DNA from: Flavobacteriales bacterium
Lineage (GTDB): Bacteria; Bacteroidota; Bacteroidia; JANQJC01
DNA length: 51,202 bases
Assembly: GCA_028281825.1 (NCBI GenBank)
Contig: JANQJC010000051.1
Span: 1 to 51,202, forward strand
Direction of reading: 5' to 3'
Of this stretch, positions 16,688 through 48,595 are shown in pieces. The translations under genes and the position numbers were made by a program. The notes beneath the pieces are model-generated. The model saw only the letters and a program-made list of their open reading frames with translations. It was not told where the DNA came from and did not search any database. The stretch's first letter is position 1. The number at the start of each line of letters is the position of its first letter.

Positions 16688-17920
16688 ATGAATCCTAATT
16701 TCATTCTTCTTGCAATCCCATTTTTTATCTTGACCATTCTTGCTGAATACGTCTATGGACGCGTGAAGAAGAAGGATTATTACAATTTTGAGGATTTTAT
16801 AACCAACATGAATATTGGTATTGGCCAGCAGGCATTCAACGCGTTAATCAAGGCGATTATATTAATGGTTTATGACTATGTAGTTAGAAACTTCGCTTTC
16901 TTCACTATCGAAACTTCAATTTTAAGCTTTATAACTTGTGTAACACTGTATGATTTTATATTCTATTGGGCGCACAGGTGGGGACATGAATGGAATCTAT
17001 ATTGGGGAGCACATATCGTGCACCATCAAAGTGAAGAATACAATTTATCGGTTGCCTTGAGACAATCATGGTTTCACAATTTAATTGCAATGATAATGTT
17101 TATCCCCATCCCCCTTTTAGGCTTTGATATTATCACTTTTGGCGCTGCTGCCGCTTTTCAAACACTTTATCAGTATTGGATACATACACGCCATGTAGGT
17201 AAACTTGGACCTTTAGAGTTGGTTTTAAATACTCCATCACATCATAGAGTGCACCATGCTACCAATGAAAAATACCTTGATAAAAACTATGGGGGAGTAT
17301 TAATTGTTTGGGACAGGATGTTTGGAACGTTTAAAGAAGAAGAAGAAGAGCCAACCTATGGTATTACTATACCCTTAAGGAGCTGGAACCCTGTTTGGGC
17401 CAATTATCACTTTTACGTTGACTTGTGGAAAGGAATGAAAATGTTACCCAAGTGGAAAGACAAATTCATGTTACTATTTAAGGGTCCTGAGCACTTAGGC
17501 AATATGCTAGGACAAAAAAGCCTTGATAAGACTAAAGGTGTGATTGAAAAATACCGTACGAAGGTGCCATTGAACATGCAGATATATGTATTGTTCCAAT
17601 TCACAATGTTAATCGCAGGACTTATTTTCTACATGAGTTACTTTGAAGAAATTACCTGGTTCTATCGCAGTGTATTTTTAGCATTGATAATTCTCACCAC
17701 ACTTAATTGTGGTGCTATTCTTGAAAATAAGAAGTGGACCAATGTTGTAGAAATTGTACGCTTGCTCGCATTTCTACCGGTTTATAACATTTGGTATTGG
17801 AGCTATGCACCCAGTTGGTTAGCATATACTTTTCCTATTACTTTAGTTTTGGTTGTCGGATTTCTTATATGGCTCACCATTAACTGGTGGTATTATAACA
17901 TCAGAACAGTAAAAGCCTAA
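16688..17920 (+). CDS. Fatty-acid hydroxylase/sterol desaturase family membrane protein (AGMO-like)
   Basis: A 410-residue integral membrane di-iron hydroxylase. The histidine clusters of the family are complete: HRWGH near residue 97, HIVHHQSEEYN near 108, a further His in the IHTRHVG helix near 165, and HRVHHATNEKYLDKNYGG near 190. An EEEEE-containing loop and a set of C-terminal helices follow. The spacing and the long C-terminal membrane part resemble alkylglycerol monooxygenase (AGMO/TMEM195) rather than the short sterol C4 oxidases. It probably oxidises a lipid in the cytoplasmic membrane; the substrate is not deducible. The 3' end overlaps the convergent methyltransferase gene by four bases. 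Confidence 0.9.
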   Translation: MNPNFILLAIPFFILTILAEYVYGRVKKKDYYNFEDFITNMNIGIGQQAFNALIKAIILMVYDYVVRNFAFFTIETSILSFITCVTLYDFIFYWAHRWGHEWNLYWGAHIVHHQSEEYNLSVALRQSWFHNLIAMIMFIPIPLLGFDIITFGAAAAFQTLYQYWIHTRHVGKLGPLELVLNTPSHHRVHHATNEKYLDKNYGGVLIVWDRMFGTFKEEEEEPTYGITIPLRSWNPVWANYHFYVDLWKGMKMLPKWKDKFMLLFKGPEHLGNMLGQKSLDKTKGVIEKYRTKVPLNMQIYVLFQFTMLIAGLIFYMSYFEEITWFYRSVFLALIILTTLNCGAILENKKWTNVVEIVRLLAFLPVYNIWYWSYAPSWLAYTFPITLVLVVGFLIWLTINWWYYNIRTVKA

Positions 17921-24538: not shown

Positions 24539-25873
24539 TTATTCTTGAATTGAATTTGGTTCATCGTCAGTGTACCATTTGATGCGCTTACTGAAATACA
24601 TCACCAAACCAAGTATGATGAATAAGCCCACACTGCCCATCAATAGGGCGTAATCTTGCTCTTGCAGCAGTATGAATACAAAGAAATAGAGTGCTGCAAG
24701 AGTCCCCCCAGTGAAAAGGGTAACCTTGGCTTTTTTAACAACCGCACTAGTATAAAGGGTAACCATAGTTACAGTAGCCAAACTTGCTATTGCGTATGCA
24801 AGAGTAAATCCAAGATGCTCGCTAATGGATACTAGTAATGTATAGAAAACGCATAAAGCTATCCCAACCAATAAGTATTGTACTGCATGTATTCTTTTCT
24901 TGTGAAGTATTTCGGTGAAGAAATAGGTGAGAAAAGTGAGTACAATAATTAATATGGCATATTTGGCACTTCTGGTACTCTTTTGGTATTGATCTACGCC
25001 TGTTAAAAGACTCAAACCAAATGCAGAGCTATTTAAATCTTGGTCTCCCTTCCATTGTTGCGGGAAATTTCTGTTCACATGCAAGATTTTCCACTCTGCG
25101 TTAAAACTACTGTCGGAAACTTCACGAGTTTCAGGTAGAAAAGCCCCATCAAAACTTGGATTAGGCCACTTAGATTTTAGGTTAACTGCCGTTTGTTTAC
25201 CTACCGGAACAAAATGAAGTTGTTGACTCCCATTTAGGTTTATTTTGAATGAGAACTCGTAATTAGTATTGGAAGAATCGACAAATACAGGAGAACTCAC
25301 TCCACTTTCAATCACTCCGTCTGCTATGGTGCCAGGTTCAAAGTCATGTTCTGCATCCTGCCAATTGAGTTTAATATTCTCCCTTATCCCACGCATGTCG
25401 GTTACCCCGATATTGAGAGTGGCAGAACTCCAATCCACATATTCTTCAGCAATTCCCAAGGCAGCAAAGTCTGGTTTGGGAAATATACCCTTTATATCAA
25501 GCTGAGAATTATAAACAGTTACGTCATATATACCCCGATGCAGATTTTGAGTAAACAACTCTCCGTTAATGGACAAATCATCTGGAAGAAAGTGTGCGTA
25601 GTAAGGCGTCTTATATGTCTTTCCGTCTTCCTCATAGTACACAAAGTACTGTACAGATAAAACGGGCCCTGTAATGGTTTGATATCCACCCCATTTACTA
25701 TGTACATCCCTTACTGCTGAATATTGGGATTGGCGCCTTTCACGAATAAGATCTTCCACCATTGCACTTGGTATTAGTAACAGAAGTGTGATAATGCCAA
25801 TAGTGAAAAACTTAAGGGATATTGAGTTTTTGAACCATCTGTTGATACGAGATAAGATGTCATTGCTTACCAT
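24539..25873 (-). CDS. creD: CreD-family inner membrane protein
   Basis: A 444-residue membrane protein of the CreD family. One N-terminal helix (about 20-38) precedes the family-typical LIRERRQSQYSAVRDVHSKW, then a large extracytoplasmic domain of about 270 residues (with GPVLSVQYFVYY early on and LLTGVDQYQKSTRSAKYAIL at its end), and five or six C-terminal helices. In Enterobacteriaceae CreD is the effector of CreBC and affects envelope integrity and beta-lactam response. No creBC genes are here; instead it follows a DUF4173 gene and a winged-helix regulator. This neighbourhood suggests control by that regulator. Its biochemical activity is unknown. Confidence 0.93.
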   Translation of the reverse strand: MVSNDILSRINRWFKNSISLKFFTIGIITLLLLIPSAMVEDLIRERRQSQYSAVRDVHSKWGGYQTITGPVLSVQYFVYYEEDGKTYKTPYYAHFLPDDLSINGELFTQNLHRGIYDVTVYNSQLDIKGIFPKPDFAALGIAEEYVDWSSATLNIGVTDMRGIRENIKLNWQDAEHDFEPGTIADGVIESGVSSPVFVDSSNTNYEFSFKINLNGSQQLHFVPVGKQTAVNLKSKWPNPSFDGAFLPETREVSDSSFNAEWKILHVNRNFPQQWKGDQDLNSSAFGLSLLTGVDQYQKSTRSAKYAILIIVLTFLTYFFTEILHKKRIHAVQYLLVGIALCVFYTLLVSISEHLGFTLAYAIASLATVTMVTLYTSAVVKKAKVTLFTGGTLAALYFFVFILLQEQDYALLMGSVGLFIILGLVMYFSKRIKWYTDDEPNSIQE

Positions 25874-26009
25874 TAGTGTGTGTTTTATTGGTTTTTGATC
25901 ATTGACAATTTTATGCTGTCTTTCCTATATATATTGCAGCCATTAATTATTCGTAACACAACCTTTATTATCCGCACTGCACTAAGGATTATATGATTCT
26001 GGCTATCCA

Positions 26010-27626
26010 CTAATCTACCCTTGTTTCTTGCCTGCTGCCTTCATCCCATTGTAGGAGTGTGAATTCATGCCCATCCGTTTCTTTCAACATATTGTAAGCC
26101 CTGGCATCTGCATGATTCCATGAGGGCCAATCATATCTCTCCTGCTTTTCTAAGTAGGCCGCAGCCCTGTACTCCATATAATTCTTAAAGCGCTTGAAAT
26201 CGGTATAAAAAATCCACTTCACATTATTCTTATTGTGTGCCTCTATTTGGGCTTCCACTTTATCTAGATTCTTCATGATATCTGGAATTACACGATCAGA
26301 CATAGTAATGTAGAAGTCTACATCAATTTGCCCTTTATTCCAATGGTTTAGGTTGTAGTTGACGATAATACGCTCCCAATTAATGCAGCAGGTGATTACC
26401 ATCACAGCATAGGCTGCCCAGCTTGTTTTTCTGAATAAGAAATAGAAAGAGCGGGTTTGCTTGATTTTCAAGAACATGAAAACGATACCAATGGCTGTTA
26501 TGATTAGAAACACTACCACCCCAATACGCTTGAACGCCAAACCATGATATGCTATGTAATGGTAGTTGCGCAGAAATACAGATATGGCTAACACCATATT
26601 CTGAGCCATCCATACATAAGCTAGTGGCCTTAGTAAGTTCTTGCCGGGATAAAAGTTTTGATTTCTCCTGAATAGATAGAGAATTATGCCTATCGAAAGC
26701 AGAATGCTTATAATGAGCAAAGTGGTGCCCTGATGTACAAACTGTTTGAGGCTAAAGTCATCTGGAACAGTAAACCCGAACCATAGCCATTGTATGTCTA
26801 ACACATTAACCACCAATAGCATCAGGTTGACCATAACTATTAGCAGTAAACCTACCCTATGTTCGTTTTTAAGCGCCAGCGTTTTGAAATGGGCCATATT
26901 CGCCGGTGTAGCTCCTATATGCATCGCCCTTTTCTTTCTTTTCTTCCTCACCCTGAACAACGCATCAGTAAATGAAAGGTCTTTGTCCAGGAACATTTTA
27001 ATTTCCCTGTTAAAAATGATGCCTGCTATCACCATTAAGCCCAGCAGGATGAATAGTATCCAGGAAAGAGAGAAATACTCCTTAATGTGGACCAAAAGCT
27101 GATTGAGTTTCTCTATGAATATTTCTGTTAACTCAGCGAACCTTGGGCTGGCGCCTTTATATAGAAAATAGAATACCAGAAATACAATAGTTGGAATGAT
27201 GGCCAACTTAAGGTAATGCCTTATCCTGCTATATTTACCGTCAGCCTTCTCCCCTTCTTTTCTGATGCCCGCTAACGATAATGGAGCCCGCAAAAAGTTA
27301 TTCAGGGTATTAAGCAATGAATAGTAAATGGAGCGCATTTCACTATGGTGGATAAAACCCAGCATGGTTGAGAAAGAAAGGATATGCATTATCTTACTCA
27401 GGCTAGTATTGTAGATTACCACACAAACTCCCGTAATGACAGTAGCTACTGCACTTACCCATGCATTTCGTGAATACAAACTCTTAGGGTTGAGATAAAA
27501 AGCAAAAGCAGCCAATAAAGAACTGAATACCATGAGGTTAATTCCCAGCTTTTGGTGCCAGAACAAGAAGTTGTAGGCTACGATGCCAATCAAAAGAAAC
27601 AGATTTGCTGTTTGTCGGTTAGTCAT
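26010..27626 (-). CDS. DUF4173 (DUF4153-like) polytopic membrane protein
   Basis: A 538-residue protein with about twelve membrane helices and a C-terminal soluble tail of ~100 residues. Signatures of the DUF4173 family are NAWVSAVATVITGVCVVIYN, the YLFRRNQNFYPGKNLLRPLA segment and VWMAQNMVLAISVFLRNYHY. The function is unknown. It is 136 bases upstream of creD on the same strand, and its own upstream region contains the palindrome TACTTTG-N5-CAAAGTA, also found ahead of the regulator/membrane-protein unit. This links DUF4173 and CreD to the winged-helix regulator. Confidence 0.82.
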   Translation of the reverse strand: MTNRQTANLFLLIGIVAYNFLFWHQKLGINLMVFSSLLAAFAFYLNPKSLYSRNAWVSAVATVITGVCVVIYNTSLSKIMHILSFSTMLGFIHHSEMRSIYYSLLNTLNNFLRAPLSLAGIRKEGEKADGKYSRIRHYLKLAIIPTIVFLVFYFLYKGASPRFAELTEIFIEKLNQLLVHIKEYFSLSWILFILLGLMVIAGIIFNREIKMFLDKDLSFTDALFRVRKKRKKRAMHIGATPANMAHFKTLALKNEHRVGLLLIVMVNLMLLVVNVLDIQWLWFGFTVPDDFSLKQFVHQGTTLLIISILLSIGIILYLFRRNQNFYPGKNLLRPLAYVWMAQNMVLAISVFLRNYHYIAYHGLAFKRIGVVVFLIITAIGIVFMFLKIKQTRSFYFLFRKTSWAAYAVMVITCCINWERIIVNYNLNHWNKGQIDVDFYITMSDRVIPDIMKNLDKVEAQIEAHNKNNVKWIFYTDFKRFKNYMEYRAAAYLEKQERYDWPSWNHADARAYNMLKETDGHEFTLLQWDEGSRQETRVD

Positions 27627-27700
27627 GATTTTCGATTTTTGGTTTGTGGGTAAACGCTTATAATCATATTTTCTTGCCTTAGTTTAACATTTTTTAAAAG

Positions 27701-27719
27701 TACTTTGTATTTCAAAGTA
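27701..27719. promoter_or_regulatory. Putative operator copy 1 (ACTTTG-N5-CAAAGT)
   Basis: TACTTTG (27701-27707), spacer TATTT, CAAAGTA (27713-27719): a perfect seven-base dyad. It sits between the winged-helix gene and DUF4173, 75 bases ahead of the latter's ATG. The second copy lies at 28736-28752. The likely ligand is the adjacent winged-helix regulator (inference). Confidence 0.6.
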
Positions 27720-27742
27720 TAAATATAAAAAATATATGCCTT

Positions 27743-28039
27743 CTATTTGCTTGATTTTAACAGGGCCTCCAGTGCATTCAAATGTGCTTGAAACGCTTTT
27801 TTTCCCGCTGTTGTGATCAGGTATGATGTATTTGGTTTTTTGCCTATAAATTGTTTTTTCACTTTTAAATAGTTTAGTTTTTCCAACGCTGTGATATGAC
27901 TTGCAAGGTTTCCATCTGTCACGTCAAGTGTTTCTTTAAGGGTGTTGAAATCTACGCTGTCGTTTACTATAAGTACCGACATTATGCCCAGCCTTATGCG
28001 GCTGTCAAACGCTTTATTCAATCCATCTATAACGCTCAT
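27743..28039 (-). CDS. Winged-helix transcriptional regulator (HTH_34 type)
   Basis: A 98-residue protein that is a single winged-helix DNA-binding domain of the kind annotated as MarR-like or HTH_34. The helix-turn-helix is at about residues 30-55 (FNTLKETLDVTDGNLASHIT) and the wing at 58-75 (YLKVKKQFIGKKPNTSYLITTAGK). It lacks a separate ligand domain. Relatives in Bacteroidota are usually paired with a membrane protein and act as repressors. Here the partner gene lies 21 bases upstream on the same transcript. The two palindromic sites flanking this unit are good candidates for its binding sites. Confidence 0.9.
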   Translation of the reverse strand: MSVIDGLNKAFDSRIRLGIMSVLIVNDSVDFNTLKETLDVTDGNLASHITALEKLNYLKVKKQFIGKKPNTSYLITTAGKKAFQAHLNALEALLKSSK

Positions 28040-28060
28040 CGCCCTTTCATACTCACTCTT

Positions 28061-28717
28061 TTATTCGCTTACCGCTTTTCTATCATATTTATTGTACATC
28101 AACAGTCCATATATTATATGTAATATTCCGAAGCCTAGCGCCCATGCAATTAGGCCATATCCAGGAAACACTGAAGCCAGTAAGCCCAACACTATTTCCA
28201 ACACCCCGAGATACTTTATTTCATCCAAAGTGTACTTACCAGCACTTATTAACGCCAATCCATAAAATATTAAGGTGGCTGGCGCTATCAGACCTACTTT
28301 TCCATGCATGAATAGTATACCACAGTAAAGGCCACCAGCAACCAATGGTATGGAAAGGCTTGCCAACATTCTCTTTGACGCTGCATTCCACATTTTGTGG
28401 TTGCTTTTATAGGTCTTCTTTCTTGTGAAGTAATAGCCAGTTACCAAAGACAAAACCAGAACTATCAGTGCATCAAGAATACAAAAGGTCAACACATCCA
28501 TATTGATTTGCCCGGTCAAGTCTCTCACCCTATCATAATAATTCAAGCTCATGTGCCCACTGCCCATCAAATAGAAGTGAGCCGCCCCTGCCCCTATCAA
28601 AGCATATATACCAGCAAATACACCTGATAGGCCACTTAACGTAAGGAAGCGTGAAGAGCGTTCCATCATCAGCCTTATCTCGGCCAGGTCGTTTAATCTA
28701 TCTTTATGTTCAGTCAT
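28061..28717 (-). CDS. Membrane partner of the winged-helix regulator
   Basis: A 218-residue integral membrane protein with about six helices after a charged 22-residue N-terminus (DRLNDLAEIRLMMERSSRF). The C-terminal half has LVAGGLYCGILFMHGKVG and a Gly/Tyr-rich last helix pair (GYGLIAWALGFGILHIIYGL). Proteins of this type often precede HTH_34 regulators in Bacteroidota, which suggests the membrane protein senses something and the regulator responds; this is inference from context. The start is 19 bases downstream of the palindrome at 28736-28752, and the minus-strand TTACTTTG at that site could serve as the -7 box. Confidence 0.75.
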   Translation of the reverse strand: MTEHKDRLNDLAEIRLMMERSSRFLTLSGLSGVFAGIYALIGAGAAHFYLMGSGHMSLNYYDRVRDLTGQINMDVLTFCILDALIVLVLSLVTGYYFTRKKTYKSNHKMWNAASKRMLASLSIPLVAGGLYCGILFMHGKVGLIAPATLIFYGLALISAGKYTLDEIKYLGVLEIVLGLLASVFPGYGLIAWALGFGILHIIYGLLMYNKYDRKAVSE

Positions 28718-28919: not shown

Positions 28920-30305
28920 ATGTCGGGTACAGATTCATTTGACCTTCTTGACCAATTAGGAGACAAATCAAAAGTTGATAGGCTAAAAGCCAAAATAGAG
29001 AAGCGTAAAGACGCTGATATACTCAGCCAATTGGACAGTATAGAATCAAGCATTGAGCAGGCTGCATCAGAAAATCGCTCTGCTGAAGATATCGTAAAGA
29101 ACATCGTAAATGCCAATTTCGACACACTTAATGGTGATGTAGAAGAAACAGAAAAGGACCTTCAGGAGTTGATGCTTCACCTACGTGCCATGCTAGATAG
29201 CTGTGGGGGTGAATTTGCTAAACTGCAAGAACTTAACCCAGAGGAAGAGCAGTTGATAGAAAACGCCAAAACTGCACTAGCAAAGGCTGAAACAGACCTG
29301 AAGGATGCCGAAGGCATGTCAAATGCATGGAACATTCTTTTCGGACTGAAGAACAGGCGTGTTGCGAGCGGCAAAGACAAGCACGCACAAGCAGAAGCGA
29401 CGGTAAAGCAGTCTGAAGAAGAAGCCAATCGCCGTTACAGGGAGAGGTTGAAGAATGCCGATATCGATAGCTCACTAAATCGTATTATAAGCCAGGTTCA
29501 AGGAATGGTGGGTATTGTAGAAGATATGATTGGTGAAGTTGAAGTGCAAATTGAGGCTTTGAAAAATCGTAAAGAGTTGGCTTTTGAGACCAAGCAAAAA
29601 GCAGCTAAAGTGATGGAAGACCGCCAAAGCGAGTTGGAAGAAATTGAGGCTAAATTAAAACTAGCTGAGCAAGAGCTGGACGAAATGGAGAATGGCTCAC
29701 CTGAGCATACCGCTCACCAAAAGAAAATAGCTGACATCCGTGAATTGAGGGCAGAAGTTAAAGGTAAGTACAATGTGGCCTTGGGTATCTTCCAATCAAA
29801 AGAAAGGTTTGTAGACCAAATTGTAGTGCACCTTGAAGCCCAAACAACCACCAAGAACAACTTGAAGCAGTTGATTGGTCAGCTTAGAAGCGATACCGAA
29901 GAAAGGGTAACTACTTATGAGTCTGGTTTGCAATTGATACAATCTGCTACTGCACAGGAGGCTGCTTCTATTTATGAGGATGCAGGCACCAAGACAGACC
30001 AGTTGATTACTGAGATTGCCGCTAAAGTGTTTGTGTCATCTGAACAGGATAGGATTGACAGGATTAAGAAGCACCCTAAACGTATGAGCGAGTTGCACAA
30101 GGTATTGGTGGCAATGGCTCAAGCCACAGCTGCTTATAAGGAGAAGGATGCTGAATTGATGAAGCAACACCAGGAGAAGTATGGAATTGATGTGACTCGT
30201 GAGTTTTCTCACATTTATGAGAAGGGTGAGAATAATGAGCCTATTACAGCACCTCAGCCAGAGAAGAAAAAAGGTGGTGATGGAGTGAATGACTTGATGA
30301 ACTAA
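28920..30305 (+). CDS. Long coiled-coil protein, first gene of the AAA+ operon
   Basis: A 461-residue soluble, highly charged, almost entirely helical protein. Coiled-coil stretches are evident at residues 15-60, 105-155 and especially 195-260 (KAAKVMEDRQSELEEIEAKL). The C-terminal third has ASIYEDAGTKTDQLITEIAAK and ends in a Lys/Pro/Gly tail (PQPEKKKGGDGV). There is no signal peptide or membrane helix. I do not recognise the family. The coiled-coil character is loosely like TelA-type toxic-anion proteins or generic filament-forming proteins, but no defining motif is present. The stop codon is directly followed by the ATG of the next gene (zero gap), so it is certainly part of the operon; it may be a structural or adaptor subunit. 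Confidence 0.72.
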   Translation: MSGTDSFDLLDQLGDKSKVDRLKAKIEKRKDADILSQLDSIESSIEQAASENRSAEDIVKNIVNANFDTLNGDVEETEKDLQELMLHLRAMLDSCGGEFAKLQELNPEEEQLIENAKTALAKAETDLKDAEGMSNAWNILFGLKNRRVASGKDKHAQAEATVKQSEEEANRRYRERLKNADIDSSLNRIISQVQGMVGIVEDMIGEVEVQIEALKNRKELAFETKQKAAKVMEDRQSELEEIEAKLKLAEQELDEMENGSPEHTAHQKKIADIRELRAEVKGKYNVALGIFQSKERFVDQIVVHLEAQTTTKNNLKQLIGQLRSDTEERVTTYESGLQLIQSATAQEAASIYEDAGTKTDQLITEIAAKVFVSSEQDRIDRIKKHPKRMSELHKVLVAMAQATAAYKEKDAELMKQHQEKYGIDVTREFSHIYEKGENNEPITAPQPEKKKGGDGVNDLMN

Positions 30306-31403
30306 ATGAAAACCATTGATGTATTAGACCAATTCACGGAGCTTGATCGAAGTATATTAAAATACCACGATCAGTATGTGGATTACTTTGACTACCTGCG
30401 TAAGATTTTTGGGGCGCTCATCAATTCTTTTAATGAGCGGGCAAGTGAAGACCCACAGGAGATAGTTATCATCAAAACTTTTATCCAGCGTTTTCTCAAT
30501 ACAGTGGAAGCATTTAGGATGAAGTATGTTTTTGATGAAGAAAATGCCATGAGCATTGACCTGACGGACTCCAGCTTTCCCAATCACATGGAGTTTAGAA
30601 AGTTACTGCACGATATTGAGAACAGAGACCAAATGCTGGCCTCCCTCCCATCGGCAGAGACTTTGAAACAGGCCTTGCTCGACAAACTTTTTACTAATAA
30701 TAAAAAGCCCTCCAAGTTGATGATGCAATTGGCCAAAAGGACTTACCTGAGCCAACTGAATACCAATCGTTTGTTTATCCCGTTCACACCAGGAGAACTA
30801 GTGAGTGTGAGTAGAGATGATAAAGAGGAAACACGCAGGTATTTGTATTCATGGGGGTCTTATGACAGTGTTACCAACAGACCTTTTGTTTACATCATGA
30901 TATTCGACCAGCCTCAATCTGAGCCAGCCTTGTATTCTGACAAGGCCAAACTGGATGAATTGGTGAGCGCAATTTGGAAGATAAAAAGGGATACTTCACC
31001 ACTAAAAGTGATAGTGACTGAGATAGACGAAAAGTTCCCTCATATCTATCCAAAAGTGCTTAAAAGAATTGATTTAGGCCCTTTGTATGGCAAGTATTCA
31101 AAAGATGATAGTGCCTTAACAAGAATTATAAAGACCTACTTTGATGAAGATGATTTCATATTTGTTTTCACCACAGAGGTTATCTTTTCTGTAGGTTCTA
31201 AAAAATCGGGAAGCATATTTTCACAAGGGGAAATGAGGCAAATCTTTTTTGTGGATGAGTCCAATAAGGATTGCATGGAAAGAAATGTATCACAAGTACA
31301 TAAGTACATGATGGCCCCTCATGATGTTGTTCAGCATATGAGGGATTACCATAAAGAAATGGTGGAAGGCCTGGCCATGCCACCTATTACAGTAACTCAA
31401 TAA
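30306..31403 (+). CDS. Unrecognised soluble protein, second gene of the AAA+ operon
   Basis: A 365-residue cytoplasmic protein without a recognised domain. The N-terminal third is helical (ILKYHDQYVDYFDYLRKIFG and a following helix). The middle is beta-rich (RRYLYSWGSYDSVTNRPFVY, then IMIFDQP). Near the end come DDFIFVFTTEVIFSVGSKKS and a His-containing helix (MAPHDVVQHMRDYHKEM). No catalytic signature is clear. It begins at the base after the coiled-coil gene's stop and is 11 bases upstream of the ATPase gene. The conserved-looking mixed alpha/beta centre suggests a stand-alone adaptor or substrate-binding partner of the ATPase, but that is inference from position only. Confidence 0.65.
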   Translation: MKTIDVLDQFTELDRSILKYHDQYVDYFDYLRKIFGALINSFNERASEDPQEIVIIKTFIQRFLNTVEAFRMKYVFDEENAMSIDLTDSSFPNHMEFRKLLHDIENRDQMLASLPSAETLKQALLDKLFTNNKKPSKLMMQLAKRTYLSQLNTNRLFIPFTPGELVSVSRDDKEETRRYLYSWGSYDSVTNRPFVYIMIFDQPQSEPALYSDKAKLDELVSAIWKIKRDTSPLKVIVTEIDEKFPHIYPKVLKRIDLGPLYGKYSKDDSALTRIIKTYFDEDDFIFVFTTEVIFSVGSKKSGSIFSQGEMRQIFFVDESNKDCMERNVSQVHKYMMAPHDVVQHMRDYHKEMVEGLAMPPITVTQ

Positions 31404-31414
31404 AAAATTACCCA

Positions 31415-33382
31415 ATGGAAAGAGGCGAAACAGCTTTACTACCCATTAAGGAAGATGACATAAAGGAATATCGCGAAGAAATAACCGCCTATTTAAAGTC
31501 GGTATCTTGGACACCTGACCAACAGAAAAGAAAAACCAATGAGCAGATAGACCTAAGCTTCCTTATACAAAACAAGACCTTAAGTGTTAACCAAAGTGAT
31601 GAGCTTTCTGTGCTCAAAAATGCCATCAGGATTAGTGATGACAGGATATTGCTTTCAAATACTGTCAACTTCACCATCAATACTATTAGAGAGGGCTTTT
31701 GTGTAGGGAGATATTTGGCTGCTTTATATGAGAAAGCTTCAGGATTAGAAACCTTGCTCTTTCGCAATAAGGATGGTAGCATGCACCAAAGTGAGCAGCC
31801 TGAGTTTCACGATAAAATGGAGGCACAAAGCGCGGTAATGCTGTTTACTGCCGCTTACTATATAGTATGGAAGCTTTCAAAGCATCGCCCTGAAGAAGTG
31901 AGTTCTATTAATATTGAGTTTGGTGGCATACCCGAAGTAAAACTCTCCCGCCCTACCCGTGCAGCAAACTGTGTACTCTATTATTACTGCGCTTACCTTG
32001 AGCGCTCAAATACTGTTCGCACAGAATTGGAGATGGTAAAGATGACCTTGCTTTATTTTGAACGGCTGATTGAGGAAATCCAAATGCGTAAGGACTCCAT
32101 TAAATACCTGGATTTCTTTACTAATAACCATTACAAGTTAGAACATTCCGATTTTGTAGTACAAGGGTTTGAGCCAAGCTTTACTGGAACCGTTCATAGT
32201 ATCACCTTCAATAAAATCAAAATGGAGGAGATTGTGGCCAACCGCGAAGCCAAACATATGTTTAAGCGTTTTGCAGAAAGGTTAGTATGCCATGACTTCG
32301 AAACGGGAAAAAATCCAATGCTAGAATTAGGTGGCCTACCATCTATTACTATGGCGGATGGTAAACCTGGCACAGGTAAAAGTATGCTGATTGCTGCCAC
32401 AGCTACCTTATTGCAAGAAAAATGCGAATGGCTGGGTATTCCTTTTCTTTTCTGGCCTTTACCTGAGAATATTATTTCCACTTACCAGGGTGGTTCAGCT
32501 GAGAGGGCCCTGGAATGGTTCCGCCCTATGGCAGACCCTAATAAAATTATTTTTGCACCGATTGATGATGCTGAAAACAATTTGGAAGAGAGAACCAGAC
32601 AAAATGTATCAGCCGGTGTACGTGAGTTTATTGGTGTTTTCTTGAGAAATACTGAGGGTGCTTATGCAGTAAACAATGGCAATCGCTTGATTAGCCTGTT
32701 CACCAACATTCCTGACCAGATTGATAAAGCTGTTCTTTCAAGAATCCAAGTTCGTGTTTCCATTGATGGTGCTGAAAACAAAATGGACTTTATGGACCAG
32801 GACCATCTATGGTGGAGAAAGTACGAAAAGCTTTCACCCGGGTTTGTGAATATGACTACTCCTAATGGCTACGAATATATGGCAGGGCAAAAGGACTTAA
32901 ACTCATTGAAAGAGGTTTATAGTACGGATTATCAATTTCAACAAGATAGTGTGAAGGAGATATATGAAGACACCCTGAAGCAAGGTGACCCAACTTCGCA
33001 TGAATTCTTTGGGATATTTTATTCCAATATTCAAAAGAAATATCCATTCTTCTCCTCACGGGATTTGAGGAATATTCAAAAGGCCATTGATGCAAGAGTT
33101 ATTGACTTCGACTTACCAGAAGATTGGTGGGAAACCCCAGAAGCATTCTTTAAACAAGAATACGATACTAAATTGGGCATGCTGCGTGAACTGATGAAAG
33201 CCAATATTGGTGACTTATCGTTTGCGGAAATCAGGCTGAGAGAAGCCCAATTCTATATTGACACCGCGGTACGTATCAACCAAACGGGTATTGAAAGGGA
33301 AATAAAAGAAAACGCAAAAAGGCTGCATATTCAGCATGAGGCATCGAAGAGAATGCAAAATGGCGAAGCGATAGAAGCATAG
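31415..33382 (+). CDS. Classical AAA+ ATPase with a large unassigned N-terminal region
   Basis: A 655-residue protein with one AAA+ module at about residues 295-455. Walker A is GKPGTGKS (316-323), the following pore-loop/second-region signature is YQGGSAERALEWF (357-369), Walker B is IIFAPIDDAE (378-387), sensor 1 is Asn431 in TNIPDQIDKAV, and the arginine finger is Arg443 (LSRIQVRV). The pattern is that of the classical AAA clade (FtsH/p97/ClpX-like remodelers), though the Walker B ends D-D-A-E rather than D-E. The N-terminal ~290 residues and the C-terminal ~200 residues are unassigned; there are no membrane helices or protease motif. Likely a remodelling motor acting on the partner membrane or coiled-coil proteins. 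It lies centrally in the operon (11-base and 3-base gaps). Confidence 0.88.
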   Translation: MERGETALLPIKEDDIKEYREEITAYLKSVSWTPDQQKRKTNEQIDLSFLIQNKTLSVNQSDELSVLKNAIRISDDRILLSNTVNFTINTIREGFCVGRYLAALYEKASGLETLLFRNKDGSMHQSEQPEFHDKMEAQSAVMLFTAAYYIVWKLSKHRPEEVSSINIEFGGIPEVKLSRPTRAANCVLYYYCAYLERSNTVRTELEMVKMTLLYFERLIEEIQMRKDSIKYLDFFTNNHYKLEHSDFVVQGFEPSFTGTVHSITFNKIKMEEIVANREAKHMFKRFAERLVCHDFETGKNPMLELGGLPSITMADGKPGTGKSMLIAATATLLQEKCEWLGIPFLFWPLPENIISTYQGGSAERALEWFRPMADPNKIIFAPIDDAENNLEERTRQNVSAGVREFIGVFLRNTEGAYAVNNGNRLISLFTNIPDQIDKAVLSRIQVRVSIDGAENKMDFMDQDHLWWRKYEKLSPGFVNMTTPNGYEYMAGQKDLNSLKEVYSTDYQFQQDSVKEIYEDTLKQGDPTSHEFFGIFYSNIQKKYPFFSSRDLRNIQKAIDARVIDFDLPEDWWETPEAFFKQEYDTKLGMLRELMKANIGDLSFAEIRLREAQFYIDTAVRINQTGIEREIKENAKRLHIQHEASKRMQNGEAIEA

Positions 33383-33385
33383 TAA

Positions 33386-34672
33386 ATGAAGAAGTTAATA
33401 GACACGGGTTTATTTGGTGAAGGCTTGATAGAATTGGTAAAACCATCAATGATAGCCAGGTATAATGCCTGCCTGAAAGATATTGGCTTGAAACCAACCA
33501 GGTTGAAAAAATTTTCAATAGATGGTTGGGGCTGGAGCCCTGAAATAGCTGAAGAAAGAAAAGACCCGTTTTATCTTTCGCATAATGGGCCCACTAGTCC
33601 ATTTGCTATTATTATCACTCCTGAACAAGAAGATAAGCCAATCTACTTCCCTTATCATTCATACGATAGGGATTTGATGCGCATTGTATTCCACACCTCA
33701 CGCAGGCAAATTACTGACTTAACCACTGAGACTGGTGTTTGGATAGATGTAGATAAGGAAATAACTACTTTTCTTTCTCCTCAGGATTTATTAATGATTG
33801 ACTCGATACAACTTCGCTTCAATACTCCCCATAAGCTGATGCGAGCAGCCAGGGAGCAACGCAAGTTGGTTCGGGAGTTTTATGACGACACCTTCGCTTG
33901 GGGTGATTTTGAGTTACACAAAAAGATACTCGCTTCAAGCAAGAAGTATGGAGACTTACGCTTCCGCAGTCTAGATATTCCCGATACACCATATACCCAT
34001 GTTCGCTCTTTTTATAGCAGGGCTTTTGGTGGCATTTTTGTTTTTAGGGATTTACCCAATGGCAAGCCACTGCTAATACTGGAAAAAGAAGAAAGCAAAG
34101 TATCAGGAGAATTGACGCACAGGCATATGGAGTTCAACCTTAATGGTGAAGGCCTGATGGATATCCTGATAGAAGAACAATTGCTTGAAACTGATATGAC
34201 CTATTATCAGAACAACCTGGAGAGATTACAACGCTTGATGGATTGCCTTTTTGTGCAGGCTTGTTGCATTGAATATCCTGACATTGAGCTAAATGGTTTA
34301 GCTAGCGGTAAAAAGAAAGGACTAGTGGTAGATTTATTAAAGGCTGAAAAATTAGAAAGACTGTACATAGAACTGGAAAGGTTTATTAAACAACTGGGAA
34401 GTGTTACCAGGCCCGAGTTACACGAAATATCACCAGAGTTGCAAAGTCTAATAGCTGTGCCTAATAGTTATCTCCCCAAAAACATGAAAGGTGTTGTTTG
34501 GAAACTCTTAATGAAGCTCTCTCCTGTTGATGTCATGAAGTTATACCAGTATGATAAAGAGGGTTTCTTTAATGTATATAAAACCTGGCCTGAGAACCAC
34601 CAAAAGTGGGCTGCTCAATACCTGAAAGAAAACTATATAGGTAAACCTGAAGTTGAACCTGTAAACCAATAG
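33386..34672 (+). CDS. Unrecognised soluble protein, fourth gene of the AAA+ operon
   Basis: A 428-residue cytoplasmic protein with no recognised domain. Notable stretches are GWGWSPEIAEERKDPFYLSH near residue 48, YSRAFGGIFVFRDLPNGKPL near 210, the His-containing ELTHRHMEFNLNGEG near 242 and a helical C-terminal half with a Lys-rich loop (LASGKKKGLV). It may be a metal- or nucleotide-binding fold, but no complete motif supports that. There is no signal peptide or membrane helix. It begins three bases after the ATPase stop and ends two bases before the next start, so coupling with the ATPase is very likely. Confidence 0.65.
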   Translation: MKKLIDTGLFGEGLIELVKPSMIARYNACLKDIGLKPTRLKKFSIDGWGWSPEIAEERKDPFYLSHNGPTSPFAIIITPEQEDKPIYFPYHSYDRDLMRIVFHTSRRQITDLTTETGVWIDVDKEITTFLSPQDLLMIDSIQLRFNTPHKLMRAAREQRKLVREFYDDTFAWGDFELHKKILASSKKYGDLRFRSLDIPDTPYTHVRSFYSRAFGGIFVFRDLPNGKPLLILEKEESKVSGELTHRHMEFNLNGEGLMDILIEEQLLETDMTYYQNNLERLQRLMDCLFVQACCIEYPDIELNGLASGKKKGLVVDLLKAEKLERLYIELERFIKQLGSVTRPELHEISPELQSLIAVPNSYLPKNMKGVVWKLLMKLSPVDVMKLYQYDKEGFFNVYKTWPENHQKWAAQYLKENYIGKPEVEPVNQ

Positions 34673-34674
34673 CC

Positions 34675-35304
34675 ATGATATTCGCATTTCACGCTTTAGT
34701 ATTTTTCATTCTTGGTATCCTATTGTTCTACATCGATACCAAAAGGGGTATCATATGGTATCGTGGATGGCATAACCTTACGCATAAAGACCCTATGCCT
34801 GATGGTGTAATAAAAGGTTTTATTGTCAATAACGATTTCCGTTCAAAACTCACCATAGGCTTGATACTGGTTTTAGCTGAAATAGCTGTTTCATTTTTTT
34901 GGGGAATGGCTTCTCCGCTTGAAGATTTGTTTTACGGAATTGGTGAATTAGTAGGTGTTATAGCAGGTTTTTACTTGGCACCAAAAATGATAAAAACAGT
35001 ACCCGGTGGTATCAAAGATACTATCGAATACATACAAAAAGTAGAATCTGGTGAAGCTGATGTTAAGAAAGATTTCATCAAAGGTGCCGTAAAAGCTGGA
35101 ACTGAAGTGAAAAATATAATCACTGCTGAAGATAGTGAAGAAATAAAGACTTCGCCCCCAAGCCAAGCCCCAGAACCTGAACCTGCTAAACCCAAAGAGA
35201 CCGAAGAAACAAAAGCGGAAGAACCAAATCAAGTACAGCCGAAAAACGACGACGACAAGGATGATGACTGGCGCAAAGGCGTAAAGAAATTTATGGATAA
35301 ATAA
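34675..35304 (+). CDS. Three-helix membrane protein with an acidic, Pro-rich tail
   Basis: A 209-residue protein with membrane helices at about residues 3-20, 58-78 and 86-104, then a cytoplasmic or periplasmic tail. From residue 150 the tail is low-complexity (PSQAPEPEPAKPKETEETKA) and ends in a stretch of Asp/Lys (NDDDKDDDWRKGVKKFMDK). The Pro/Glu tail resembles a flexible tether, for example for a bound soluble subunit. The stop TAA overlaps the next ATG by one base. It is a membrane component of the operon and could anchor the ATPase complex (inference). Confidence 0.72.
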   Translation: MIFAFHALVFFILGILLFYIDTKRGIIWYRGWHNLTHKDPMPDGVIKGFIVNNDFRSKLTIGLILVLAEIAVSFFWGMASPLEDLFYGIGELVGVIAGFYLAPKMIKTVPGGIKDTIEYIQKVESGEADVKKDFIKGAVKAGTEVKNIITAEDSEEIKTSPPSQAPEPEPAKPKETEETKAEEPNQVQPKNDDDKDDDWRKGVKKFMDK

Positions 35305-36926
35305 TGGAGCAGGAAACCAATACGCCACAGGAGGCAGGAGAAAAAAGCAGACTCTATTGGTTCTTTAGAAACATGAAAACTAGAGTTGGTGGTGGCTTAA
35401 GTTCTTGGGCGCGTAAACACTGGATATTAGCCACCATACTGGTACTAGTGCTGCTTGACGTTATCATTACCGGACGCGGAAGTTTCCAAGTTGTTTTCCT
35501 GAATATCCGTAAGTACTTCCTACTAGTGATAGTTCTTTCTTTATTAGCTTGGTTGTGTATCAGATTGATATCAAAAGCCAAAGTGATCGGCAAAATAGTG
35601 ATTAGCCTAATATTTGTGGGCTTACTGGTAACCTCATGGTTTTACGGCCCTCAAGTTTATGAATATGTAGGGCTTTACTATCATTACCAAAACCTCAATA
35701 AACTGGAACTTAATAAGTTACCCACTACAGGGCATGAAAGAATACAACCCCTCAACTCTATAAAGACATTGGTAAGGCAAGACGCCTTATCTGAAACTGA
35801 AGATGCCTCTCCTCCTCGATTTATAAAGAGAAAGGATGGAAGTTATGATTTTGCTATGTGTGTCGGGCCATCGCCAGAGTATATGGCTCAGCTTCTCAGT
35901 AAAAACATGTACGAAATTATCAGCGTCTCAGCTACTTCACCCGCACCAGACTTTTCAGCAAGAAATAGATATGAAGTAAATTTCGATGTTGGGGAACACT
36001 TGTTATTCAGTAAAAAACTCAGTAATGCTGTTATCAAGCGCTTTGGGCCACTACAGTACTTTAGTTATGAACCCTCAGAACCTATCTTCATTGAAGACAA
36101 TGCTGGCAATTGGGTTCAGGTAGTTCCACTCGTCAGGTGGAAAGGCTGGTTGATACCAAGACCGGTTTTTGGTGGGGTAATGGTAATCAACCAAACAGAA
36201 AATGGTCTTAACAGTTGGCTTAGGCGAGTGTTTTTGGGAGAAGGCCAGTGGATAAGCCCAGAAGAGATATATAAAAACGAATTCTTAAAAGGGCAAAACC
36301 TGATACCCGAGAGAGTTGCACGTTTCACCGCCGAGAGTTTCCGTTTTCAAGAAGGATTTCTTGCACCATTTCCTGGATACCATGAGGGTGACATTAGAAT
36401 ACCCAACTTACCTAACGACCAAAATCAACAGCCATTTGTCACATTTTTTAATTTTGATGGTACTGGAATAGAAAGCAGCAGCAAGCTTTGTAGTTATTTT
36501 GGATTAGAACCCTACCAGGAATCGAAGAAAGCATTGAACACCAGTTTATTCATACCAGGCGATAGTGATGCTGTAGTGTATTATATAGACCACGCCAAAC
36601 GTAAAGATGCCTTGACAGGCTCCAGTGCAATGCCATCACGCATTATAGAAAGCCGTAAGCAGTACGACTGGGAGAAAAACTACCCGGCAGAATCAAGGCC
36701 ATTCATTAAAGATATTGAAGGTGAAAGACGCTTCTTTTGGTTGAGTACAGTAGTTACCAAAACCGACACCACAGGTGAGTTTATTGGTGGTAGTGCTCCA
36801 GACGTTACCATCACAGATGCCCACTACAGCCAGGTAATTTGGATTGACAAATCCATTATTGGGAACACCAAAAAATGGGAGGCCCAAATTCAGCAAGAAT
36901 TAAAGGATTTTTGGAGCGAAAATTAG
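35304..36926 (+). CDS. Three-helix membrane protein with a large extracytoplasmic domain, last gene of the operon
   Basis: A 540-residue protein. The N-terminal cytoplasmic part is charged; three helices lie at about 40-56, 70-90 and 96-113; the remaining ~425 residues form one large soluble domain that should lie outside the cytoplasmic membrane if the N-terminus is inside. That domain has no recognised family. It contains FAMCVGPSPEYMAQLLSKNM, a WVQVVPLVRWKGWLIPRPVF stretch and YYIDHAKRKDALTGSSAMPS. A Pro/Trp-rich, beta-strand-like pattern suggests a globular receptor or enzyme. It closes the operon, and the plus-strand transcript then meets the minus-strand M16 gene at 37014. Function unknown. 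Confidence 0.75.
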   Translation: MEQETNTPQEAGEKSRLYWFFRNMKTRVGGGLSSWARKHWILATILVLVLLDVIITGRGSFQVVFLNIRKYFLLVIVLSLLAWLCIRLISKAKVIGKIVISLIFVGLLVTSWFYGPQVYEYVGLYYHYQNLNKLELNKLPTTGHERIQPLNSIKTLVRQDALSETEDASPPRFIKRKDGSYDFAMCVGPSPEYMAQLLSKNMYEIISVSATSPAPDFSARNRYEVNFDVGEHLLFSKKLSNAVIKRFGPLQYFSYEPSEPIFIEDNAGNWVQVVPLVRWKGWLIPRPVFGGVMVINQTENGLNSWLRRVFLGEGQWISPEEIYKNEFLKGQNLIPERVARFTAESFRFQEGFLAPFPGYHEGDIRIPNLPNDQNQQPFVTFFNFDGTGIESSSKLCSYFGLEPYQESKKALNTSLFIPGDSDAVVYYIDHAKRKDALTGSSAMPSRIIESRKQYDWEKNYPAESRPFIKDIEGERRFFWLSTVVTKTDTTGEFIGGSAPDVTITDAHYSQVIWIDKSIIGNTKKWEAQIQQELKDFWSEN

Positions 36927-46510: not shown

Positions 46511-48595
46511 ATGCTTAATAAAGTTCTCCCTACCCTGTTCGTCCTGTTGATGAGCATACTCCCTTCATTTTCTCAATCCGTAAGTATTAATCCTGAGAAT
46601 ATCCAAATAGTTCGTGATAAATGGGGAGTGCCACACATTTTTGCTAAAACCGATGAAGAAGGTTCTTATGGCCTGGCATGGGCTACCTGTGAGGACAGGT
46701 TTGTAGATTTACAACACACCATGCTTTCAGTAAACTTCAGGCTAGGAGCCTATGAAGGTAAAGATGGAGTGATAAGAGACATTGTAGCCTATCTGGCTGA
46801 TGTAGAAGGTATGGTGGAAAAACGGTACGAGAAAGACCTATCTCCAAAGTTCAGAAATATGGTATCAGCATATGTACAAGCCGTAAATAAGTATGCTGAA
46901 ACCCACCCAAAAGAAATAGTGAGTAAAAAACTATTTCCTATAACTGAGAAGGATATCATAAAAGGATATTCTTTGACTCTCATTTTTATGACGGCAGTTC
47001 ATTATGACCTGGTCAAAATATTCAAAAACTATATTGACCAATATGAGAAGAATACTCCAAAAGGGTCTAATGCAATAGCTATAAGCAAAAGAAATACAAA
47101 AGATGGGAAAACCTACCTGGCTCTTAACTCTCATCAACCACTAAAGGGACCATTTGCCTGGTACGAAGCCCATGTAAACACAGAAGAAGGCTGGAACATT
47201 ACTGGTGGCACTTTCCCCGGAGGAGTTACACTCCATACAGGAAACAATTACGATTTGGGATGGGCACACACTCTCAATTACCCCGACCTTACCGACGTAT
47301 ACAAGCTAGAGATGAACCCTGATAATAAACTACAATACAAATATGACGGTGAGTGGAAAACCCTCAAAGTACGCAAGGGAAAGTTTAAGGTGAAAGTACT
47401 GGGTTTCTTAAAAATACCTATCAAGCGTAAGTTTTATTGGAGTGTGTATGGCCCAACCATCAAAAATAAAACAGGTTTCTATTCAATGCGTTTCCCTGCT
47501 GGATTAAACTGTAAAGCTGGTGAGCAATGGTACCGCATGAATAAGTCACATAGTTATGAAGAGTTTATGGAAGCATTGCACCTGCAAGGCATACCTGGCA
47601 CCAACATAGTCTATGCGGATAAAGAAGATAATATCTACTACCTATGCAATGGACAATTCCCTTACCGAGATGACAGCTACGATTGGAAAATGGTTTTACC
47701 GGGCAATACCTCCAAAACACTTTGGGAAGCAAATAAATATTACCCTCTAGATAGCTTAGTCTTTAAACTAAACCCTGAATGTGGTTTCGTTTTCAATACC
47801 AATAACCCTCCTACCCAAAACTCTTGTACTGACGAAAATCAAATTAATTGCAACCCCACTTTCGGCTATCAGCAAAAGAGCAACAATCGCGGCTTGAGAT
47901 TACAGGAATTGTTGGAATCAAAGTCAATGATGAGCTATGAGGAATTTAAAGAAATCAAATATGATAAAACCTACCGTAAGCCAATGTATAATTTTGCGGC
48001 CGAAAACATCGAATTGATGTTCAATTTGGATGAAAACAAATATCCTGAGATTGCTGAAAGCATCAAAATATTGAAGAATTGGGACCGTGTTGCAGACATA
48101 AATCGCGAAGGTGCCCCACTTATGGCAATGGCTATTCAATACATCAAAAAGCGTTTGTTTAAAGAAGGTAAACTACCAGGAAGCAATACGTTGGATGAAA
48201 GCTATTATGTGGATGCTTTAACTTATGCTCACAAATACATTAAAAAGCATTTCGGCACTGTGCATGTTAAGCTAGGTGAAGTGCAGCGCCATATTCGTGG
48301 TGATGTGAACCTTCCAGCCTATGGAGCTTATGATGTGCTAACCGCAGCAGAAGCCAAGCCACAAAAAAACGGACAGATAAAAGTTACTTCAGGTGAGTCA
48401 CACATTCAATTAGTGCGCTTCTCTAAAGATGGTGTGGAGATAGAGTCAGTGGTACCTTATGGTGCATCTGATAATCCAAATAGCCCCCACTATACAGACC
48501 AAATGGAAATGTACGCCAAAGGTCAACTAAAACATATGACATTGGATAGAGAAGAACTTTTCAAAAACGCAGAGAAGATTTATCACCCGAAGTAA
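46511..48595 (+). CDS. Penicillin acylase-family Ntn hydrolase (secreted)
   Basis: A 694-residue exported N-terminal-nucleophile hydrolase of the penicillin acylase / acyl-homoserine-lactone acylase family. Signal peptide MLNKVLPTLFVLLMSILPS, then the alpha subunit with IVRDKWGVPHIFAKTDEEG and GLAWATCEDRF. The autocatalytic nucleophile is Ser186 in PKGSNAIAISKR; it starts the beta chain, with GGTFPGGVTLHTGNNYDLGW (in pieces: GGTFPGGVTLH and GNNYDLGWAH) following. It cleaves an amide after self-processing; whether the substrate is an acyl-homoserine lactone, an antibiotic or another amide is not known. It may use the near -7 box TACCTTTA at 46473-46480. It stands alone. Confidence 0.92.
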   Translation: MLNKVLPTLFVLLMSILPSFSQSVSINPENIQIVRDKWGVPHIFAKTDEEGSYGLAWATCEDRFVDLQHTMLSVNFRLGAYEGKDGVIRDIVAYLADVEGMVEKRYEKDLSPKFRNMVSAYVQAVNKYAETHPKEIVSKKLFPITEKDIIKGYSLTLIFMTAVHYDLVKIFKNYIDQYEKNTPKGSNAIAISKRNTKDGKTYLALNSHQPLKGPFAWYEAHVNTEEGWNITGGTFPGGVTLHTGNNYDLGWAHTLNYPDLTDVYKLEMNPDNKLQYKYDGEWKTLKVRKGKFKVKVLGFLKIPIKRKFYWSVYGPTIKNKTGFYSMRFPAGLNCKAGEQWYRMNKSHSYEEFMEALHLQGIPGTNIVYADKEDNIYYLCNGQFPYRDDSYDWKMVLPGNTSKTLWEANKYYPLDSLVFKLNPECGFVFNTNNPPTQNSCTDENQINCNPTFGYQQKSNNRGLRLQELLESKSMMSYEEFKEIKYDKTYRKPMYNFAAENIELMFNLDENKYPEIAESIKILKNWDRVADINREGAPLMAMAIQYIKKRLFKEGKLPGSNTLDESYYVDALTYAHKYIKKHFGTVHVKLGEVQRHIRGDVNLPAYGAYDVLTAAEAKPQKNGQIKVTSGESHIQLVRFSKDGVEIESVVPYGASDNPNSPHYTDQMEMYAKGQLKHMTLDREELFKNAEKIYHPK

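Follow-up and report, generated by a model that had tools for sequence, protein, structure and literature searches.

Six plus-strand open reading frames occupy positions 28920-36926 of the window, which is the whole stretch of 51,202 nucleotides that was analyzed, and the list of open reading frames of the window gives gaps of 0, 11, 3, 2, and -1 bases between them. The first gene, p1 (28920-30305), encodes a soluble, helical coiled-coil protein of 461 amino acids and is followed by p2 (30306-31403), which encodes a soluble protein of 365 amino acids that matches no known family. p3 (31415-33382; 655 amino acids) encodes a classical AAA+ ATPase, and the product of p4 (33386-34672; 428 amino acids) belongs to the Pfam family DUF6638. 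The last two genes encode membrane proteins: p5 (34675-35304; 209 amino acids), with three predicted membrane segments and an acidic, proline-rich tail, and p6 (35304-36926; 540 amino acids), with three membrane segments and a beta-rich domain. The coordinates and spacing were exactly as claimed in the first-pass annotation, and its view of the six genes as one unit was backed by the synteny, co-occurrence, and codivergence described below.

Ordinary chromosomal genes surround the operon within the window. M16 peptidase genes lie downstream on the minus strand, and a DUF308-like protein, a winged-helix regulator, and a DUF4153 membrane protein are encoded upstream, also on the minus strand. 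With CreD, these upstream genes make up an envelope-related cluster (24539-28717) that is divergent from the operon; relatives of this cluster were not found adjoining the operon in the relative loci L022 to L030. Elsewhere in the window are genes for an alkylglycerol-monooxygenase-like fatty acid hydroxylase (16688-17920) and a penicillin amidase (46511-48595). Scans for promoters and terminators gave site counts no higher than those in shuffled sequences, and in pairwise comparisons among p1 to p6 and DUF2333, a membrane protein family considered below, no homology exceeded that of decoys.

Conservation and inheritance of the operon

In a scan of genome contigs, 565 of the 590 matched stretches encoded p3 relatives, and 80 loci were retained. 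p3 was recognized in 79 loci, 67 of which also carry the other five genes; the remaining p3 loci were mostly cut by contig ends or had one gene that was not recognizable. A check of gene order in relatives had been proposed with the first-pass annotation, and the outcome was clear: the order p1-p2-p3-p4-p5-p6 and the strand are identical in all 67 complete loci, so the arrangement is not due to chance. Separate searches for p3, p4, and p6 recovered exactly the same 5 genomes from a sample of 395 from the phylum, and in a plasmid collection p3 and p4 were found in exactly the same 10 records. The pairwise divergences of the six proteins across 70 loci were correlated (r, 0.83 to 0.97), with shared ancestry contributing to the correlation; this is expected of coinherited genes and by itself is no proof of contact. 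The six genes are a real, widely conserved system that is inherited together across many marine bacteria.

p3 was present in 73 of 240 Flavobacteriaceae genomes, as a single copy in each, so that about 30% of the sampled genomes of this family carry the vertically inherited operon. In the p3 tree, genera were grouped with the minimum possible number of changes (9, compared to a mean of 28.8 after shuffling, with 0 of 200 shuffles as low). Genes for an EttA-like ABC protein, MarR, pirin, and arginase, names that were assigned by sequence inspection, recur in the flanks of 32 to 45 loci. The operon is a stable, vertically inherited chromosomal unit and not an island.

A multigene set with an AAA protein and membrane proteins and a patchy distribution among genera might be expected of an anti-phage defense system. 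However, the absence of any recognized defense family, noted in the first-pass annotation, was borne out by PADLOC, which assigned no family; there was a weak IetA match over the AAA domain (E value, 0.011) and another match with an E value of 0.18. The operon is also single copy in all carriers among the 240 genomes, its p3 tree follows the genera, its flanks are common to dozens of Flavobacteriaceae loci, and its neighbors in the window are ordinary chromosomal genes. Thus, given the fixed chromosomal position, the vertical inheritance, and the lack of a defense-family match, a role in defense seems very unlikely.

The closest relatives of the window's operon are in uncultured Bacteroidota (p3 identity, 68%). 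A copy 68% identical to that of the window is found in a MAG titled Saccharospirillaceae (Pseudomonadota; L023/G412), whose phylum sample consists of the same Bacteroidota genomes; that title is probably wrong. Additional genes interrupt the operon in some relatives. A NUDIX-type gene, absent from the window, lies between p3 and p4 in 38 loci, many of them from Flavobacteriaceae (e.g., L010 8902-9489 and L013 8388-8981), and accounts for the median spacing of 595 bases between p3 and p4. A NUDIX gene also adjoins a DUF2333 gene in a study of the Pseudomonas T6SS (PMC5256989). In 15 loci a gene of about 120 codons is inserted between p2 and p3 (e.g., L013 11136-11498), and by eye its product resembles the four-helix family of 23S rRNA intervening sequences. 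A small gene inserted in the operon at L013 6650-6952 was judged by eye to be GIY-YIG-like.

The AAA+ ATPase and its soluble partners

p3 matched PF00004 above the family cutoff (E value, 9e-10). Its Walker A motif (GKPGTGKS, residues 316 to 323; G-x-PGTGK[ST] across the family), the aromatic-Q-G motif of pore loop 1 (F/Y357-Q358-G359), the sensor asparagine of the SRH (T/S430-N431), and two arginine fingers (R443 and R447) are each found in 85 of 85 relatives. The intact Walker A, sensor Asn, and Arg finger that had been described for p3 are therefore not only present but invariant. The second Walker B acid is Asp and not Glu: the motif is IDD (D384-D385) in every one of the 85 relatives, with the Asp aligned to the catalytic Glu of IDE in VCP-like ATPases, and relative to the latter, there is a two-residue insertion ahead of Walker B. 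The invariance of this Asp marks it as a family trait rather than a sign of decay. p3 lacks the hhhhDE form of Walker B, a variation in one motif, and since PF00004 was still passed above its cutoff, membership of p3 in the wider AAA superfamily stands at the sequence level despite the IDD motif. The Glu-to-Asp change might result in slow or no hydrolysis and was counted against the interpretation of the operon as a remodeling machine that is developed below.

The best p3 matches in a profile search of the PDB were an archaeal VCP-like ATPase, Cdc48, Rpt4/Rpt, and Vps4, all of which are threading machines. An aromatic pore loop is used by the threading members of the classical AAA clade, and p3 shares with such ATPases (archaeal VCP-like, Cdc48, Rpt, Vps4, and katanin/spastin) the Walker A motif, aromatic pore loop 1, the SRH Asn, and two arginines. 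It differs from them in the Walker B Asp, in the two-residue insertion, in its own six-gene context, and in its N-terminal ∼300 residues and C-terminal part. The PDB matches were confined to the AAA region (about residues 264 to 467, mostly 313 to 457), and no solved protein matched the flanking parts in the PDB sequence searches, in agreement with the 290 N-terminal residues that had been left without an assignment in the first-pass annotation. No MIT domain was found at the p3 N terminus in PDB sequence searches and Pfam, both of which work at the level of sequence.

The AF2 model of p1 is helical throughout, as anticipated for the 461-residue coiled-coil protein, and is of modest confidence (pLDDT, 69.6; pTM, 0.48). 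Short motifs mark both ends of the protein. FDLL is found near the N terminus in 75 of 82 members, and an acidic dileucine-type motif (DLM/DDLL) stands at the extreme C terminus in 72 of 82, preceded by a variable linker of 24 to 38 amino acids. Such motifs on flexible ends would be typical docking or grip sites. The FDLL/DDLL ends were absent from both of the proteobacterial p1 proteins inspected. A membrane-binding helix at the aromatic stretch around residues 134 to 144 of p1 was considered and was not singled out by a hydrophobicity scan.

The pairing of a helical protein with a classical AAA protein and membrane proteins is also seen in ESCRT-III/Vps4 and in the bacterial PspA/Snf7-AAA operons that have been described (PMC11237479). 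The operon could accordingly be read as a strict ESCRT-III/Vps4-like or Psp-like membrane repair system with p1 as a divergent Snf7, PspA, or Vipp1. Vps4 is among the AAA matches of p3, and F-BAR and Vipp1 are among the fold matches of p1. However, the Vps4 match (E value, 0.003 and weaker) is no closer than those to VCP-like ATPases, Cdc48, and Rpt, and the p1 fold matches are insignificant (best E value, 0.004; TM of <0.3 for F-BAR and Vipp1), with Vipp1 at an E value of 0.29 and a TM of ≤0.25 against a model with the modest pLDDT given above. Neither PspA (PF04012) nor Snf7 was among the matches listed for 49 p1 members (25 of 61 families, E values up to 10), and p2, p4, p5, and p6 have no recognized counterpart in the PspA/Snf7-AAA operons. 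This explanation is improbable. MIM motifs of ESCRT-III are Vps4-binding motifs, and the flexible tail and short end motif of p1 recall them; by analogy, the operon may operate in the manner of ESCRT-III/Vps4 and yet not belong to that system.

The TelA/KlaB toxic-anion resistance operons likewise combine a coiled-coil soluble protein with soluble partners, and by eye p1 shows a TelA-like order of an aromatic short helix and a long helical hairpin. We therefore considered whether the operon is a stress system of the TelA type (KlaABC/TelAB, YceGH) that has gained an AAA motor, with p1 as a divergent TelA (PF05816). The profile comparison of p1 with 10 diverse TelA proteins gave an hhalign probability of 0.6%, no better than reversed decoys (decoys, 0.1 to 0.2%; same-direction reversed pair, 1.7%), whereas the positive control gave 100%. 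Furthermore, p2 and p4 matched no TelA-operon partners, and no AAA gene was annotated in the two TelA neighborhoods inspected. This derivation of the operon is very improbable indeed.

p2 matched no known family in profile and sequence searches and is conserved into Vibrio and the Rhizobiaceae. p4, which had been described as an unknown soluble protein, is indeed uncharacterized but belongs to a named family: its match to DUF6638 (PF20343) has an E value of 8e-39 and a score of 134 bits compared to a gathering cutoff of 27. No paper on DUF6638 was found in a literature search beyond whose reach most subscription-journal papers lay. We propose that p2 and p4 act as adaptors or regulators. Overall, the profile searches that had been suggested for the six proteins left p1, p2, p5, and p6 without a family, whereas p3 (AAA) and p4 (DUF6638) matched families.

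Membrane proteins and the reduced core

The description of p5 as a three-helix membrane protein with an acidic Pro/Glu tether agrees with the three segments of the window's p5 and the acidic, proline-rich tail of about 105 residues that follows them and ends in WRKGVKKFMDK. Three membrane segments were found in 59 of 77 family members and two in the other 18. The tail combines a variable acidic sequence with a conserved terminus, which in the Flavobacteriaceae is mostly of the SARERLKDKGLL type (66 of 77 members) and in the clade of the window is of the DWRKGV..F.DK type. Charge distribution suggests that the tail is cytoplasmic.

p6 has three membrane segments in 73 of 73 members, and its strongly conserved, beta-rich soluble domain of about 428 residues is predicted to lie outside the inner membrane, close to the 425-residue outer domain expected from the first reading. 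The AF2 model is of high confidence (pLDDT, 89.1; pTM, 0.87). Its comparison with the PDB gave no match with an E value of <1e-3. Over its full length, the model matched a predicted viral protein, A0A6G5YLZ4 (E value, 5.4e-16; TM, 0.54/0.50; 12% identity). A phage or viral origin was rejected, as neither p3 nor p6 has sequence relatives in phage records or viral contigs.

The order p1-p2-p3-p4 was also detected by tblastn in Vibrio vulnificus, V. parahaemolyticus, Sinorhizobium meliloti, Shinella, and Rhizobium leguminosarum. Each of these proteobacterial core genes was aligned by tblastn to the window or a rhizobial query, which recovered genes that are masked by longer antisense open reading frames in the GC-rich rhizobial loci. 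p5 and p6 were not recognizable in these Vibrio and rhizobial loci. Where the Bacteroidota have p5-p6, S. meliloti and Shinella have a DUF2333 membrane protein in the same slot after p4. It is not detectably homologous to p6 (hhalign probability, 0.5% for p6 against one DUF2333 [PF10095] sequence), and p6 has no Pfam match. Like DUF6638, DUF2333 is an uncharacterized family, on which one incidental paper was found. Because p1 to p4 are present without recognizable p5 or p6 in Vibrio and the rhizobia, we infer a core made up of p1 to p4, surrounded by a shell of membrane parts that can be exchanged. In Shinella, p4 immediately follows p3; in S. meliloti Ak57, a gene with an endonuclease domain and an ISRm16 transposase separate the two (L020 10911-12656).

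A possible remodeling machine at the inner membrane

The first-pass annotation had suggested that the set may be an ATP-driven machine for remodeling or building an envelope-spanning complex. The anatomy fits this suggestion, with a threading-type AAA protein, a coiled coil, two membrane proteins, and an outer domain; substrate and activity are what we infer. The established gene set, gene order, coinheritance, AAA motifs, terminal motifs, membrane segments, and confidence of the p6 fold leave a tentative interpretation, held at somewhat less than an even chance, in which the operon encodes an ATP-driven remodeling machine at the inner membrane, with p3 acting on p1 and anchored by p5 and p6. 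p3 would form a ring with an aromatic pore loop, as do classical AAA hexamers, and p1 would assemble as a polymer or scaffold. Gripping short motifs at the flexible ends of p1, p3 would pull p1 apart or reshape it, and p2 and p4 could serve as adaptors or regulators within the core. In the Bacteroidota, p5 and p6 would anchor the machine to the inner membrane, the flexible and presumably cytoplasmic tail of p5 bearing a terminal docking motif and p6 transmitting the state of the machine through the membrane to its large outer domain. Counted against this interpretation were the modest confidence of the p1 model, the membrane parts that are not universal, and the p1 end motifs that are missing in the inspected proteobacteria.

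The chief rival is a chaperone for an envelope enzyme. In this explanation the operon is an activating set in which p3 assembles or activates the outer domain of p6, or another envelope enzyme, in the manner of MoxR or SpoVK, with p1 serving as a scaffold instead of a substrate. p6 ranks with the better conserved proteins of the operon, and its outer domain is large and highly conserved; SpoVK, moreover, provides a precedent for an AAA chaperone that acts on an enzyme of the envelope (PMC10659427). However, loci that lack p5 and p6 still keep p1, p2, and p4. p6 thus cannot be a universal client, which weakens the chaperone explanation, and we consider it unlikely.

A further step from the remodeling interpretation is possible but doubtful: the operon could represent an unrecognized class of ATP-driven, membrane-anchored machine in which a classical AAA ring whose Walker B carries Asp reshapes or disassembles a dedicated polymer of coiled-coil subunits and transmits the work through the inner membrane to a periplasmic domain with a new fold, with p1 to p4 common to Bacteroidota and Pseudomonadota and the membrane output module differing. 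No description of such an operon was found in the literature search, whose reach excluded most subscription-journal papers. The proposal that the locus is a candidate new system is well supported by the synteny, co-occurrence, and codivergence of its genes, by the failed family searches, and by the lack of a description in the literature found.

The retention of four to six proteins together across two phyla points to a standing cellular function. Should the operon prove to encode an AAA machine that remodels a coiled coil at the envelope, it would be a functional analogue of ESCRT/Vps4 built from other components. Culturable carriers include Winogradskyella, Polaribacter, Dokdonia, Tenacibaculum, and Vibrio, in which deletion and testing are feasible. 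In S. meliloti 1021, a ChvI DNA-binding fragment lies inside SMc02733 (PMC3687685), and according to a locus-tag match guessed from gene order, this fragment may be in or near the operon.
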